Shown here: one piece after another, positions 46,449 to 52,433 of the stretch
Position numbering within the stretch: position 1 is the stretch's first letter
Layout of the letters: the number at the start of each line of letters is the position of its first letter
Assembly (NCBI RefSeq): GCF_015864575.1
Contig: NZ_JADYWW010000002.1
Span: forward strand, 496,001-560,000
Direction: 5' to 3'
Source of the DNA: Salinibacterium sp. SWN248
Lineage (GTDB): Bacteria > Actinomycetota > Actinomycetes > Actinomycetales > Microbacteriaceae
Length of the DNA stretch: 64,000 bases
Position numbers and translations under genes: made by a program
The notes under the pieces: model-generated
The model's database searches: none
What the model saw: the letters and a program-made list of their open reading frames with translations, nothing else
What the model was told of the DNA's origin: nothing

Positions 46449-47582
46449 CTAGGCGAGTTCGACGCCGACGCCAACAGGTTCTGGCTGCAGGTAGATGCCG
46501 TAGCGGCTGAGTACGCACGCGCCAATGTACCGGGCGAGTTCTGCAACTTCGGCAGCGTCCGCGCCAGTGCGATTGACGATCGCCAAGCTGTGTTTCGTCG
46601 ACACGGCGGCTCGTGAGCCTGGCAGACGAAAGCCCTTGTTCACGCCCGAATGTTCGATGAGCCAGGCGGCGCTGAGCTTGACCAGGCGCGGCTTGGGCGC
46701 GGGTGGCGGGGCAGGTTCTTCCCCGAGCGGAACAGCAACGTCGGTGACGGGTTCGTCCTCGATAACCCAGCGTGGGGCATCCGCGGGAAGCCCTCTTGCG
46801 ATGTGCTCTGGCACGATCGGGTTGGTGAAGAACGAGCCACAACTGGCGGAGTCTGGTTCGTTGGGGTCGAGCACCATTGCTTTGGAGGCGCGCAGGGCGA
46901 GCACGGTGTCGCGCACTTGTTGTACGGGCACTCGGTCGCCGATGTTGACACCGAGCGCGGTCGCGAGCTGTTGGTACTGCACGGTGCTCTCGGGCGATGC
47001 CGCGAGGGTGACGTACACGGCGAGGACAACGCCGGCGCGCCCCTCTTTGATCACCGAGTTGCGGTAACCCAGTTCGAGTTCGGCGGTCGTGAGGTGAACG
47101 AACTCACCGTTGTCGTAGTCGAGAAAGTCGATGCCATCGAGCACGCTGGCGACTTCTTGACCATAAGCGCCGATGTTCTGAATGGGGGCTGCGCCTACTG
47201 AACCGGGAATGCCGCTGAGCGCTTCGAGCCCAGCCCAGCCCCGTGAAACGAGCTTCGCCACGAGGCCGTCCCAGGACTCGCCGGCTTGCACGCGAAGGCT
47301 CAGCGAGGTCTCGGTTTGAGAGACGAGTTGGATGCCGCGTGTTGCGATATGGATGACAGTGCCGTCGAATCCTTCATCGCTGATGACCATGTTGGAGCCG
47401 CCCCCAATGAGCAGCCATTCGTCGCCTCGTTGCCACACGTCTCGCACGTTCGCGATCAGTTCTTGCTCGGTGGCGGGGCGCAGCAGCGTGTGCGCTGGCC
47501 CTCCTACCTTGATGGTGGTGAGGTCGGCGAGCGCCACGTTGTATTGCGGCGGTGTGCTTTCGCTGGGGGCGGTGTCGGTCAT
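46449..47582 (-). CDS. murB: UDP-N-acetylenolpyruvoylglucosamine reductase
   Basis: 377 aa. Reduces UDP-GlcNAc-enolpyruvate to UDP-MurNAc with NADPH and FAD, the second step of peptidoglycan precursor synthesis. FAD-binding blocks WLLIGGGSNMVISDEGFDGT and LSGIPGSVGAAPIQNIGAYGQE; the catalytic serine block SCGSFFTNPIV; the C-terminal KLSAAWLIEHSGVNKGF. A Pro-rich insertion (GEEPAPPPAPKPR) is present near residue 295. Overlaps the HadB-like gene by 4 bp. Confidence 0.97.
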   Translation of the reverse strand: MTDTAPSESTPPQYNVALADLTTIKVGGPAHTLLRPATEQELIANVRDVWQRGDEWLLIGGGSNMVISDEGFDGTVIHIATRGIQLVSQTETSLSLRVQAGESWDGLVAKLVSRGWAGLEALSGIPGSVGAAPIQNIGAYGQEVASVLDGIDFLDYDNGEFVHLTTAELELGYRNSVIKEGRAGVVLAVYVTLAASPESTVQYQQLATALGVNIGDRVPVQQVRDTVLALRASKAMVLDPNEPDSASCGSFFTNPIVPEHIARGLPADAPRWVIEDEPVTDVAVPLGEEPAPPPAPKPRLVKLSAAWLIEHSGVNKGFRLPGSRAAVSTKHSLAIVNRTGADAAEVAELARYIGACVLSRYGIYLQPEPVGVGVELA

Positions 47583-47986
47583 TTGTTGAGTTTGACCCTC
47601 ACTTGCGACTTGCCGAGCACGGTTTGGTTAGCGGCGCTGACGGTGAGGTCGATGCGCGTCACGTCGTCTTCGATGGCGCCCACTTTGGCGGAGACGGTAA
47701 CGACGACGCCCCCATTGCCGTCGACGACGACGGGGCGAGTGAAGCGCACACCGTATTCGACGAGTTCGCCGCGGTCGCCCATCCAGTCAATGACGGGTTG
47801 CACAGCGAGGCCCATGGTGAGCATGCCGTGGGCGAGTACGCCGGGGAGGCCAACGGAGGCAGCAACGTCATCGCGGTAGTGGATGGGGTTGAAGTCTCCG
47901 GATGCTCCCGCGTAGCGCACGAGCGAGAAGCGGGTGAGGGTGATATTGCCGGTGATCAGTTCTTGGCCGACGACGAGGTCGCTCAT
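47579..47986 (-). CDS. MaoC-like dehydratase (HadB-type subunit)
   Basis: 135-aa hot-dog-fold protein with the hydratase motif YAGASGDFNPIHYRDDVA (catalytic Asp and His). By analogy with mycobacterial HadAB it would form a heterodimer with the next upstream gene and dehydrate 3-hydroxyacyl-ACP. In an organism without mycolic acids the substrate is open. Overlaps both neighbours by 4 bp. Confidence 0.9.
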   Translation of the reverse strand: MSDLVVGQELITGNITLTRFSLVRYAGASGDFNPIHYRDDVAASVGLPGVLAHGMLTMGLAVQPVIDWMGDRGELVEYGVRFTRPVVVDGNGGVVVTVSAKVGAIEDDVTRIDLTVSAANQTVLGKSQVRVKLNK

Positions 47987-48447
47987 TCTGTGCCTCTCAT
48001 GACGAGTACGGAGGTTGCGGTGACGACGTGCTCGCCTGTGGCGTCGCTGATGGCGGTTTCGGCGGTGATCATGTCGTTGCCGCCGAGCGACTTAATGCTC
48101 GTGACGGTGAGGATGGCGGTGAGTTCGTCGCCGGCGACGATGGGCCGCGTGTAGGTGAACTTTTGTTCGCCGTGCACGATGCGCGAGAAGTCGATGCCGG
48201 TGTCGGGGGCGGCCAGGAGAAGGGCAAGGCCTGCCTCTTGGATGACGACGGCGAAGGTGGGCGGTGCTACGACATCCACAAAGCCTGCTGCTTTCGCGGC
48301 TTCGGGGTCGTGGTTGAGCGGACTTTGAGCGAAGACGGCGCGCGCAAATTCGCGTACTTTTTCTCGCCCGACGAGGTAGGGGGTCGTAGGCGGGAAAACC
48401 CGGCCTTCTAGTTCTTTATTCACTGGCACGGTGTCCAGCTTAGGCAA
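47983..48447 (-). CDS. MaoC N-terminal/FAS1-like dehydratase (HadA-type subunit)
   Basis: 154-aa hot-dog-fold protein lacking the Asp-x-x-x-x-His motif of its partner (ELEGRVFPPTTPYLVGREKVREFARAV, PPTFAVVIQEAGLALLLA, HGEQKFTYTRPIVAGDELTA). This is the pattern of the structural subunit in HadAB dehydratases. First gene of hadA-like, hadB-like, murB. Confidence 0.9.
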   Translation of the reverse strand: MPKLDTVPVNKELEGRVFPPTTPYLVGREKVREFARAVFAQSPLNHDPEAAKAAGFVDVVAPPTFAVVIQEAGLALLLAAPDTGIDFSRIVHGEQKFTYTRPIVAGDELTAILTVTSIKSLGGNDMITAETAISDATGEHVVTATSVLVMRGTE

Positions 48448-48550: not shown

Positions 48551-48587
48551 TGAAGCCCCGGTGACCGTGAGGTCTGCCGGGGCTTCA
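48551..48587 (-). terminator. Terminator after the micropeptide gene
   Basis: tgaagccccgg (48551-48561) pairs perfectly with ccggggcttca (48577-48587), 15-nt loop, 33 bp after the micropeptide stop on the minus strand. Separates it from the dehydratase operon. Confidence 0.75.
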
Positions 48588-48619: not shown

Positions 48620-48703
48620 TTACTGGCAGCTGTCGCACTGCAGAAGATCCATTGGGTCGACGGGAATTGCATATCCGCCAACGGTGTCGTTTTCGTTATC
48701 CAT
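48620..48703 (-). CDS. 27-aa micropeptide ending in a Cys-x-x-Cys motif
   Basis: ATG 48703 is preceded by a full AAGGAGG site with 5-bp spacing. The 27-residue product has an acidic start (MDNENDTVGGY), then AIPVDPMDLLQ and the end CDSCQ with Cys23 and Cys26. It has no signal peptide or span. The gene has its own -10 (TATAGT 48758-48763), a 26-bp dyad over the -35 region, a small 5' hairpin (48736-48750) and a terminator, so it is very likely real and independently regulated. Possible roles: metal- or redox-responsive peptide (CxxC), a modified peptide precursor, or a regulator of a protein. No modifying enzyme is adjacent. I do not recognise a named family. Confidence 0.78.
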   Translation of the reverse strand: MDNENDTVGGYAIPVDPMDLLQCDSCQ

Positions 48704-48757
48704 TCGATCCTCCTTAAAAGTCTGCTAGAAGTTTGCCGACGGTTTGTCGGAGATTTC

Positions 48758-48792
48758 ACTATATATGGGTAATGACACCCATGTCATTACCC
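48758..48792 (-). promoter_or_regulatory. Promoter and 26-bp operator of the micropeptide gene
   Basis: gggtaatgaca (48767-48777) and tgtcattaccc (48782-48792) are perfect inverse complements around ccca. On the minus strand the dyad is followed at once by CATATATAGT, and the -35 hexamer (ATGACA or TGACAT, 17-18 bp from TATAGT) lies within it. A bound repressor would block the polymerase. Transcription would start near 48751. Confidence 0.7.
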
Positions 48793-48915
48793 CAGATGTA
48801 GTGTCTCGGCGTGTCGGCCAACTTTCTTTAAATCTACTCTCACCCGCTGACATTTGGCCGCAACTTCAGATTGCAGCCAAGCCGCGCTGACCGCTGTCCC
48901 GCCTAAAATTGCCTC

Positions 48916-49643: not shown

Positions 49644-52166
49644 CTAGATGAACAGCGTCGTCGTGGATTCAGCTGCTTCTCCAAGGAACGTCGCGACACC
49701 GCCAAGTTCGACACCGTCGATGAGGTCTGATTCGGCGATGCCGAGCAGGTCCATCGTCATGGTGCAGCCGATGATGCGAGCGCCGCCCGCCATCGCCGAT
49801 TCCATGAGCTCAGGCAGCGAGTGCACACCGTTCTTCTTCATGGTCTTCTTGATCATCGCGGTGCCCGCCCCCATCATGTGCATCTGCGAGAGCGTGAGCT
49901 TGTCGGCTCCGGCGGGCATCATTCCGGCAAAGAGTTTGTCCATCGCCTTACGCTGACGCTTCGGTGGCTTCTGCTGACGCAGCGCGTTCAGGCCCCAGAA
50001 GGTGAAGAACATCGAAACCTCTTCGCCCATCGAGACCGCACCATTGGCGATGATGAACGCGGCGATCACCTTGTCGAGGTCGCCCGAGAACACCACAAAT
50101 GACACCTTGGGTTTCGCAGGGGCGGCAACTACTCCTCCACCGCCAGCGAGCAAGAGTGCCTCGGGACCAGCCTTGCGGATGGTGGCCACATAGCCTGGCC
50201 CCTCCGGTTCGATAGCCAAGAGTTCGTGACCGTTGCGACGCACCCACGCGGGGGCATCGCTCGCGAAGCCGGGGTCGGAGACGTGCACCACGATCTCGTC
50301 GCCCAGGTTGAGCCCCTTCATCTCGGTGGCAAGCTTCATGATGGGCCCCGGGCACGCGAGGCCCGTGCAGTCCAGGTTTACTGAGACGCCCGTGCCGTTC
50401 GCGACGTGGGCGGCAACGCGAGCCGAGTTGAGCGCTTCAGCGGCTTCGGCGTACGACGTTTCTGGTTCGATCGGTCCGTCGGTGTCGGGCTCGACCTCAT
50501 GCCACGCTCGGAACGTTTCGGATCCGCCCGACAGTGTGGCGACATCCGTAAATCCCAGCTGCACGAGGATGCGGTACGCCAGGTAACTGCGGAAACCGAC
50601 GGAACAGTAGAGGCGCAGGCCTACTGACCGGTCCCAGTCGACCGTGTCGGTGCGGAGGGTTGCGAGCGGCACATTCTCGGCGCCGGGGAGGTGGAAGATG
50701 GAGAACTCTTCTGCAGTGCGCACATCGATAATGCGTGCACCGTCGGTGGCGTGGGGGTAGTCCTGCGCGTACCAGAGGTTGAGGTCGCCAAGCAGTACGT
50801 TGCTGGCGACGAAGCCAGCCATGTTGACCGGGTCCTTAGCCGAACCAAACGGCGGGGCGTAAGCGAGCTCGAGTTCTTCAAGATCCCAGACGGTGAGGCC
50901 AGCACGAAGCGCGGTAGCGAAGACATCGAGGCGCTTGTCGACGCCATCGAAACCGGTGACTTGAGCGCCGAGCACCTTTCCTGTGTCGGGCGCAAACAGC
51001 AGCTTGATGTGCATCATCGCGGTGCCCGGGTAGTAACCAGCATGACCGGATGGATGCACGTGCACGGCCCGGTACGTCACTCCCGCTGCCCGCAACTGGC
51101 GTTCCGTCGCGCCGGTGCCACCCGCGACCATCTCGAAGATTTTCACTATCGAGGTGCCCTGAGTGGACTTGTACTCCGTGTCGCGGCCGCAGATATTCTC
51201 AGCTGCAACGCGCGCTTCGCGGTTAGCTGGCCCGGCAAGCGGAGCGAGCCACGACCCCGGCAACACCGCGTTCGGGGTTTCAACCGAGTCGCCCGCCGCC
51301 CAAATGTTCGGGTCAGACGTGCGCATATGGGTGTCGACGGCTAGGCCGCCATTCTCGCCCAGATCGAGACCGGCATCCCGGGCAAGGCCAACACTGGGGC
51401 GGACTCCGACCGACAGAATGACGAGGTCCGCTTCGATAGTGGTCGAGTTTGTGAGTTCCACCATGACCCCTCCGCCGGTGCGCGGCGCGAACGCGGCAGC
51501 CCCCGTCGAGAGGTGAAGAGCGATTCCTCGGCTGCGGAGGTGGTGTTCTACGGGAACCGACATCTCGTGGTCGAGAGGCGGAAGAATCTGGTCGCTCAGT
51601 TCCACGACATCCACGAGCGCACCACGGTGCTTCAGGTTTTCGGCCATCTCAAGGCCGATGTAGCCCGCACCGATCACGACGCAACGCACGGGACCGCGAG
51701 CGCCACTGGCCGCCTTCTCAAGGTCAGCATCGAGTTCGGCTTTGATGGCATCCATGTCGCCTATGCGACGGAGGACATGCACCTCGGGAAGGTCGATACC
51801 GGGCAGCGGTGGGCGGATGGCTTCCGCCCCCGTGCACAGGGCGAGGTTGTCGTAACTTTCGACATATTCACGCCCGGTGTCGACCTCGCGTACCGAAACG
51901 GTTTTGGCCTGGCGGTCAATCGCAGTGACCTCGTGAGCGATACGCACTTCGATGTTGAGAGACTCGCGCAGGCTCTCGGGCGTCTGCAGAAGCAGTCGGT
52001 CTCTCTCGGTGATGACTTCACCAATGTGGTACGGCAATCCGCAGTTTGCGAACGAGACGTGATGACCGCGCTCCAGCACGACAATCTCTGCACTTTCATC
52101 GAGCCTGCGAGCGCGAGCGGCGACCGATGCGCCTCCAGCGACTCCTCCAACAACGACCAACTTCAT
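49644..52166 (-). CDS. Four-module sulfur-trafficking flavoprotein: CoA-disulfide reductase, rhodanese, TusA, DsrE
   Basis: 840 aa from ATG 52166 (preceded by AGAAGG). Residues 1-~445: FAD/NAD(P)H disulfide reductase with GGVAGGASVAARARRLDE and the single redox Cys42 in SFANCGLPYHIG, as in CoA-disulfide reductases. ~455-555: rhodanese with active loop YCSVGFRS. ~590-665: TusA domain with CTGLACPGP. ~680-840: DsrE/F-like domain with TFWGLNALRQ and GCTMTMDLLG. The cysteines could hand sulfane sulfur along one chain, coupled to reduction of CoA persulfide or disulfide. Bacillus and other actinobacteria have similar fusions. Monocistronic. Confidence 0.93.
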   Translation of the reverse strand: MKLVVVGGVAGGASVAARARRLDESAEIVVLERGHHVSFANCGLPYHIGEVITERDRLLLQTPESLRESLNIEVRIAHEVTAIDRQAKTVSVREVDTGREYVESYDNLALCTGAEAIRPPLPGIDLPEVHVLRRIGDMDAIKAELDADLEKAASGARGPVRCVVIGAGYIGLEMAENLKHRGALVDVVELSDQILPPLDHEMSVPVEHHLRSRGIALHLSTGAAAFAPRTGGGVMVELTNSTTIEADLVILSVGVRPSVGLARDAGLDLGENGGLAVDTHMRTSDPNIWAAGDSVETPNAVLPGSWLAPLAGPANREARVAAENICGRDTEYKSTQGTSIVKIFEMVAGGTGATERQLRAAGVTYRAVHVHPSGHAGYYPGTAMMHIKLLFAPDTGKVLGAQVTGFDGVDKRLDVFATALRAGLTVWDLEELELAYAPPFGSAKDPVNMAGFVASNVLLGDLNLWYAQDYPHATDGARIIDVRTAEEFSIFHLPGAENVPLATLRTDTVDWDRSVGLRLYCSVGFRSYLAYRILVQLGFTDVATLSGGSETFRAWHEVEPDTDGPIEPETSYAEAAEALNSARVAAHVANGTGVSVNLDCTGLACPGPIMKLATEMKGLNLGDEIVVHVSDPGFASDAPAWVRRNGHELLAIEPEGPGYVATIRKAGPEALLLAGGGGVVAAPAKPKVSFVVFSGDLDKVIAAFIIANGAVSMGEEVSMFFTFWGLNALRQQKPPKRQRKAMDKLFAGMMPAGADKLTLSQMHMMGAGTAMIKKTMKKNGVHSLPELMESAMAGGARIIGCTMTMDLLGIAESDLIDGVELGGVATFLGEAAESTTTLFI

Positions 52167-52433
52167 GGGATGCCGTGCCTTCTGCGGCGACCTCTGGGCT
52201 GTGCCTTTCACAGTCCATCAATGCACCGCTATATAGCCAACGCTACTCCTCTCCCTCAGGCCGTGCGGGAGTACCGGGCGCTTGTCGCGAGGTGCGATCT
52301 ACCCACCCTCACTGAGCAATTTTCCACAGGCCAGTAGCGGCATCCGGAGGACCATTTGCTAGTCTGCGAACCTGCCGCAGCGGCAGCGCAACGACAGCCC
52401 AGCGGCCTCGTCGCGGCATCCGAGAGGGTTCGC

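Follow-up and report, generated by a model that had tools for sequence, protein, structure and literature searches.

A candidate free-standing redox tail for class I ribonucleotide reductase, encoded by a micropeptide gene in Salinibacterium and relatives

Class I ribonucleotide reductases (RNRs) almost exclusively carry a double-cysteine tail on the catalytic chain, according to the accessible passages of PMC9669993. The known case closest to the locus described here is the split class II enzyme NrdJa/NrdJb of Pseudomonas aeruginosa (PMC4520616, PMC5704485, PMC9669993), of which the accessible passages describe NrdJb as a separate redox protein, required in vivo, through which disulfide exchange takes place (PMC4520616, PMC5704485). 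As set out in those passages, the two systems are alike in that the redox part comes from a separate gene and acts, or here would act, in trans on the catalytic chain, with a fused ancestor presumed. They differ in that NrdJa/NrdJb belongs to class II (cobalamin), whereas the partner here is a class I alpha with an adjacent beta gene, and in that NrdJb consists of folded domains with a zinc finger, whereas the peptide here has 27 residues and two cysteines; the same passages describe neither a stand-alone extra copy nor a phage-borne copy. The fused tail of class I alpha chains, as far as the accessible text describes it, likewise re-reduces the active site by means of a CxxC at the end of a flexible segment, but the peptide here lies outside the alpha chain. 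In yeast, the RNR tail can act between neighbouring subunits. The NrdA of Aeromonas phage Aeh1 is, as here, a class I chain made from two genes, but it was split by a homing-endonuclease insertion, and the accessible passages describe no detached redox tail (PMC3653736). In Facklamia ignava, where a glutaredoxin is fused to NrdB, the route by which a class I RNR receives electrons is rearranged as it would be here, but there a reductant domain is added to beta, again as given in the accessible passages (PMC6187632). Our literature search, with most subscription journals outside its scope, turned up no title or abstract opening on a class I RNR whose tail is a separate peptide. The F. ignava redoxin is a folded protein, and the redoxins NrdH and glutaredoxin have a thioredoxin fold and are far longer than 27 residues; a redoxin was rejected as an identity for the peptide, which has only 27.

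The gene lies in a 64,000-nucleotide stretch of Salinibacterium sp. SWN248 (the window), where a reading made from the letters alone (the sequence-only reading) had proposed a tightly controlled micropeptide gene. Its AAGGAGG site, 27-codon frame ending CDSCQ and TATAGT -10 element were located on the minus strand, and the perfect 11+11 dyad over the -35 region and the 5' hairpin were found as described (Table 1). The 'strong terminator' that it had also named is only partly supported, because the GC-rich hairpin behind the stop codon lacks a T tract and was not listed by the terminator scan. Absence of frame conservation had been set beforehand as what would refute the gene; over 30 homologues (23 distinct), the last 20 codons showed strong purifying selection (pN 0.027, pS 0.369, pN/pS = 0.074), with variable columns by codon position of 4/0/15. 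Residues P14, D16, P17, L21, C23 and C26 were invariant in all 21 aligned chosen sequences, placing the invariant cysteine pair at the extreme C-terminus. Homologues of the window gene (solo genes) have their own start and, judged by eye, a Shine-Dalgarno-like site. The peptide gave no match above cut-off to a Pfam or NCBIfam profile, with a sub-threshold match to a Pfam zinc finger (E 0.33, 11.1 of 27 bits), and Rfam and tRNA scans returned nothing at the locus. Together with a dyad core kept in all homologous upstream regions (below), the selection on the frame confirmed, at the level of sequence, a real, conserved and controlled gene for a redox-type peptide. By eye, two frames downstream of it (window 47579-48447, minus strand) resemble MaoC-type dehydratase subunits, and an 855-residue frame about 1 kb away (window 49644-52211, minus strand) looks like a disulfide reductase fused to rhodanese, TusA-like and DsrE-like parts.

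Table 1. Features at the micropeptide locus, in window coordinates
Feature	Position	Strand	Basis
Putative redox-tail peptide gene, 27 codons (stop included), MDNENDTVGGYAIPVDPMDLLQCDSCQ	48620..48703	-	ORF and homology
Conserved part of the peptide, residues 11-27, YAIPVDPMDLLQCDSCQ	48623..48673	-	alignment of 21 chosen sequences
Ribosome-binding site AAGGAGG	48709..48715	-	sequence
-10 element TATAGT	48758..48763	-	promoter scan
-35-like element ATGACA, within the upstream arm of the dyad	48782..48787	-	promoter scan
11+4+11 dyad GGGTAATGACA-CCCA-TGTCATTACCC, perfect arms, about midway between the NrdR-like boxes	48767..48792	.	sequence
NrdR-like box 2 TACCCATATATAGTGA, 11/16 to the presumed consensus, overlaps the -10 element	48756..48771	-	
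NrdR-like box 1 ACACTACATCTGGGGT, 12/16 to the presumed consensus, starts 33 bp from box 2	48789..48804	-	
Leader stem-loop CCGAC-N5-GTCGG	48736..48750	-	perfect stem in 16 of 30 homologous leaders
Terminator-like GC-rich hairpin behind the gene, lacking a T tract	48551..48587	-	sequence; unlisted by the terminator scan

Searched for RNR alpha (PF02867), the SWN248 genome gave exactly one match, a protein of 813 residues identified as a class I alpha by an NF005101 score of 1602 bits and by its ATP cone, all-alpha and barrel domains. The genome's second copy of the peptide sits between nrdA and nrdB, in the order nrdA - TAATG - peptide - TAATG - nrdB, with stop and start codons overlapping at both junctions. 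This NrdA ends ...RRGFGGFAKKAEA with no CxxC, its C-terminus being read as ...STPARRGFGGFAKKAEA, without a cysteine pair. The segments LANCFV, SNLCTEI and SVCNLASINL, which we take to be the active-site cysteine segments from their roles in E. coli, are kept in an alignment to PDB 5im3_A. With an active-site cysteine pair but no tail, a class I RNR must obtain its dithiol from elsewhere, and the peptide is the obvious candidate. We consider it highly probable that the window gene encodes a free-standing, trans-acting redox tail of class I NrdA that re-reduces NrdA.

Fused versions of the tail were found at the ends of other NrdA chains, including CPVDPMEALQCESCQ (G068), CPVDPMERLQCESCQ (G086) and CPVDPQERLQCEACQ (G081), with similar ends in 7 more translated loci. 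Across a sample of 296 genomes of the class, 22 matched a model of the tail. Outside the family of Salinibacterium there were 22 tail-model matches in 21 genomes, 19 of them inside frames of at least 850 aa, and the eight outside-family frames that were translated end in a fused tail, in the order KVNK, an RRGFG-like segment, a linker and CPVDPQERLQCESCQ or similar, one of the eight having no clear RRGFG. The pattern recovered 8 of 9 fused loci and missed L313. The fused tails of other actinobacterial families suggest that fusion is the ancestral state, the break lying after RRGFG and ahead of the tail. Two short-frame matches outside the family (G310 and G184) were considered as independent fissions and rejected, since contig ends truncate the frames of what are fused tails there; a third, in G181, was put down to chance.

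Judged on sequence, the peptide is a detached tail, an identification given by the nrdA-tail-nrdB order, the fused versions and the strict co-occurrence with tail-less NrdA described below. The CxxC motif and the sub-threshold zinc-finger match would also suit a zinc- or iron-binding peptide or the precursor of a modified natural product, a metal or redox sensor and a modified precursor having both been suggested by the sequence-only reading. We regard a metal-binding or precursor peptide as barely conceivable, given that no NCBIfam profile matches and that fused RNR tails and the nrdA-nrdB context explain the peptide; for the sensor as well, homology and that context point to a detached RNR tail.

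The co-occurrence was read in two samples. The first comprised 99 genomes, SWN248 included, of which 38, again including SWN248, had a free peptide at E<=1e-7 and 96 had a PF02867 alpha. There were 103 alpha matches in all, and C-termini were read for 89 of them (87 genomes); those left unread were 10 long frames (at least 956 aa, class-II-like by length only) and 4 fragments. A terminal CxxC was absent from alpha in 39 genomes. One of these (G060) has a long cysteine-rich end that is class-II-like by eye, and the other 38 are exactly those with a free peptide at that threshold. In 36 of the 38, a small CxxC frame lies at most 500 nt after alpha; in G035 the peptide follows alpha by coordinates and the alpha frame runs on. 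The 49 fused rows of this sample terminate in CVSC-x-L (43) or in CEACQ or CESCQ (6); two of the latter six (G068 and G086) matched the peptide search through their fused tails. No free peptide above chance was found in genomes with a fused CVSC-x-L alpha, the remaining matches having E values of 0.17 or worse.

Within the genus, the peptide was present in 26 of 27 genomes of the 99-genome search, each with at least a second match, and all 26 also carry a second gene of the window type. The alpha of another genome of the genus (G019) ends CVSCML and the genome has no peptide, as if enzyme and peptide had been lost or replaced together.

The second sample comprised 199 genomes of the family and was searched for the peptide at E<=1e-5 and for NF005101 alpha at E<=1e-100. 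The peptide was found in 94 genomes and the alpha in 91, and the peptide was present in all 91. Sixteen of the 91 were already in the first sample and 75 were new; the alpha end was read in 74 of the new genomes, G448 showing the N-terminal part only. All 74 alphas lacked CxxC, with the peptide at most 500 nt away in 69; in the remaining five, either the peptide matches lie elsewhere (G484, G403, G469, G520) or the contig ends just after alpha (G526). Over both samples, every genome read with a tail-less NrdA has the peptide (112/112; 38 from the first and 74 from the second). Three genomes of the family had a peptide match and no NF005101 NrdA: no RNR alpha was found in the assemblies of G459 (77% complete) and G515 (94%), and in G487, the alpha lies in a 728-aa frame (class-Ib-like by length only), the peptide match is weak (15 residues) and a pattern search recovered no peptide in the fetched regions.

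These counts bear on a different role for the peptide, that of an inhibitor or regulator that competes with a tail, as Sml1 does for yeast RNR; the sequence-only reading, too, had proposed an inhibitor that binds a protein. The peptide resembles a tail, could bind the same site and is present on mobile elements. However, in the 112 genomes there is no tail on NrdA to compete with, and an inhibitor would not need the two cysteines that are invariant in the 21 aligned sequences, so that we judge an inhibitory role very unlikely.

Most peptide genes follow nrdA directly, with exceptions that are informative about action in trans. The 0.9-Mb genome G041 has no peptide in the gap of about 100 nt that separates alpha from beta; its sole copy sits about 33 kb away, together with two NrdR-like boxes (14 and 12 of 16). 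Four further genomes (G403, G469, G484 and G520) have a tail-less nrdA without a peptide behind it and the peptide elsewhere. We also considered frameshifting or stop read-through in the operon, which would yield a fused NrdA-tail and leave the free peptides extra or vestigial. Operon junctions, parsed for 35 of 36 loci, have the peptide in one and the same frame relative to nrdA in 32 of the 35, and at L055 it is in frame behind a stop, as such a mechanism would have it. The shared frame is, however, what ordinary coupling through an ATG that overlaps or touches the stop (TAATG, TGATG) produces, and two junctions are in another frame. Together with the five genomes that have no peptide behind nrdA, and with solo genes that have their own initiation signals and are under strong purifying selection, this makes frameshifting or read-through highly improbable.

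For a detached tail, the mechanism that we propose is as follows. In part of the Microbacteriaceae, nrdA would have broken within the linker that joins the RRGFG segment to the VPVDPM...CxxC tail, leaving the tail as a separate peptide of roughly 22 to 50 residues, its gene usually just behind nrdA and often with overlapping stop and start codons. Docked on NrdA by way of the conserved VPVDPMDxLQ segment, the peptide would use its two cysteines to reduce the disulfide that each turnover leaves in the active site; once oxidised, it would leave or swing out, and thioredoxin or a similar redoxin would reduce it again. Extra peptide would come from the stand-alone copy when NrdR derepresses the RNR genes. 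The sequences themselves show homology, genome context, co-occurrence, purifying selection, box-like sites and the presence on viral contigs and plasmids; from these we infer that the peptide docks and transfers electrons, that NrdR controls the gene, what the second copy is for and that phages benefit, as discussed below. Against a detached tail we counted the entropic cost of binding a free peptide, which tethering would avoid. If the proposal is right, the one RNR alpha detected in SWN248, and with it an essential enzyme, seems to rely on a peptide of about 25 residues that often escapes annotation. Because the arm could be titrated or labelled separately from NrdA, such species would also lend themselves naturally to studying how a tail reaches the active site.

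Published NrdR sites consist of two 16-bp boxes with a linker of 15-16 bp, as described in the accessible passages (PMC12176259, PMC9110341). The solo gene resembles the NrdR regulon of those passages in having two box-like sites about three helical turns apart that overlap the promoter, and differs in that its boxes are degenerate and have a central dyad between them. Scanning used a presumed box consensus. By this measure, the spacing comes close to that of the published sites, the linker being 17 bp at the solo gene and 16 bp at nrdA, whose own promoter likewise has two degenerate NrdR-like boxes, 32 bp apart and without a dyad. At the solo gene, the spacing of the boxes and the near-central dyad make up a near-palindrome of about 49 bp. 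A NrdR-like pair was found upstream of nrdA in 26 of 29 loci (score >=22), the three others being loci of other families with fused tails, against 279 of 2000 background stretches of 1100 nt; at solo genes it was found in 28 of 30 (score >=21) versus 33 of 2000 background stretches of 200 nt, both backgrounds being drawn from the same loci. Among the best 80 loci of named genomes, 72 had the pair and 69 the dyad core. The genome of SWN248 has a NrdR gene, and NrdR would bind at these degenerate boxes.

The dyad core is kept in all 30 homologous upstream regions, 15 of them with perfect 9-bp arms. Allowing up to 3 mismatches, its 10+4+10 core occurs once in the window and not at all in shuffles, and its 9+4+9 core occurs once in the whole genome. 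The search for a regulon that the sequence-only reading had suggested was thus run genome-wide, and the single site means that the dyad alone defines none. Two NrdR-like boxes flank the dyad, for which that reading could name no operator; centred between them, the dyad may belong to an extended NrdR site or act as a second operator. The promoter scan found one site versus 0.6 expected in shuffles, so the promoter call rests on conservation and not on the scan. A perfect leader stem of at least 5 bp was found in 16 of 30 homologous leaders (shuffled mean 1.7, maximum 6), with 10 different stem sequences; the place of the stem-loop is kept and its sequence changes, and since perfect pairing was demanded, 16 of 30 may be an undercount.

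The solo form is distinct in sequence from the operon copy (GGYA, DLLQ), which, with a dyad found nowhere else in the genome, would be in keeping with a window copy that has diverged to a separate redox-sensing or signalling role and a central dyad that binds another regulator. We think such a divergence unlikely: the solo copies share the invariant residues of the operon copies, NrdR-like boxes flank the dyad, and in G041 the unlinked copy is the genome's only tail.

Reading the gene as a detached tail also explains a micro-ORF on hundreds of viral contigs and on plasmids of Microbacteriaceae. On viral contigs, 344 stretches encode the tail, of which we read the best 80. The stop-to-stop frames of these 80 range from about 27 to 227 codons, with a start near the motif. 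Their coding nature is indicated by pN 0.143 versus pS 0.866 (65 distinct sequences) and not by Shine-Dalgarno-like cores, which only 15 of the best 80 have and which do not favour strong initiation; none of the best 80 has a NrdR-like pair. A terminase-large-like gene lies directly upstream in 42 and a portal-like gene directly downstream in 31 of the best 80, and other viral copies follow endolysin- and holin-like genes, the family names of these neighbours resting on representatives. Searching flanks of up to 4 kb by tblastn with NrdA and NrdB of SWN248 (E<=1e-8; more distant RNR genes could escape) placed nrdA near the peptide in 0 and a nrdB-like gene in 2 of the best 80 of the 344 loci. 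These two (L233 and L254, viral contigs of about 117 and 121 kb), whose nrdB-like genes are 79-83% identical to that of SWN248, may be host or plasmid DNA.

Mobile elements that carry the peptide would feed the host RNR: with about 75 coding bases, mostly without an RNR gene nearby, they would raise the output of DNA precursors by the host enzyme. We lean slightly towards the broader view that RNR turnover runs on a diffusible, exchangeable micropeptide electron carrier, which phages and plasmids exploit to boost host dNTP output. The peptide would then rank, to our knowledge, among the smallest auxiliary metabolic genes known.

Tail-like frames were also found in the cultured phages phiPsal1, Pan2, CMP1 and CN1A, with weak E values (0.02, 0.08, 0.08 and 2) and support from the motif. 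Of these frames, the one in Pan2 is annotated and those in phiPsal1, CMP1 and CN1A are not. The expectation of the sequence-only reading that conventional gene finders would miss the gene was right in that they tend to do so. In Pseudanabaena phage Pan2, whose recorded host is cyanobacterial, the tail-like peptide (L148, 3993-4076) ends SCESCQ.

Plasmid matches came from 19 records of Clavibacter, Leifsonia and Gryllotalpicola (E 5e-5 to 0.09). In pCM2 and pCSL2, the peptide frame lies just before a gene for a single-stranded DNA-binding protein. On a plasmid of Leifsonia sp. ZF2019 (L145, 3983-4084), a free 33-residue tail peptide is annotated as 'ribonucleotide-diphosphate reductase subunit beta'. 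Three loci (L040, L041 and L042, from G025, G005 and G011) have two divergent peptide-like frames about 0.5 kb apart on an apparent mobile element, with ParA-like and SRAP-like frames by eye in L040; one member of this set ends CEACE, and one frame of L041 has no stop. Two further copies (L045 and L046), both on a 54-kb contig of G023 (C5) that is possibly a plasmid, have N-terminal extensions of about 30 residues.
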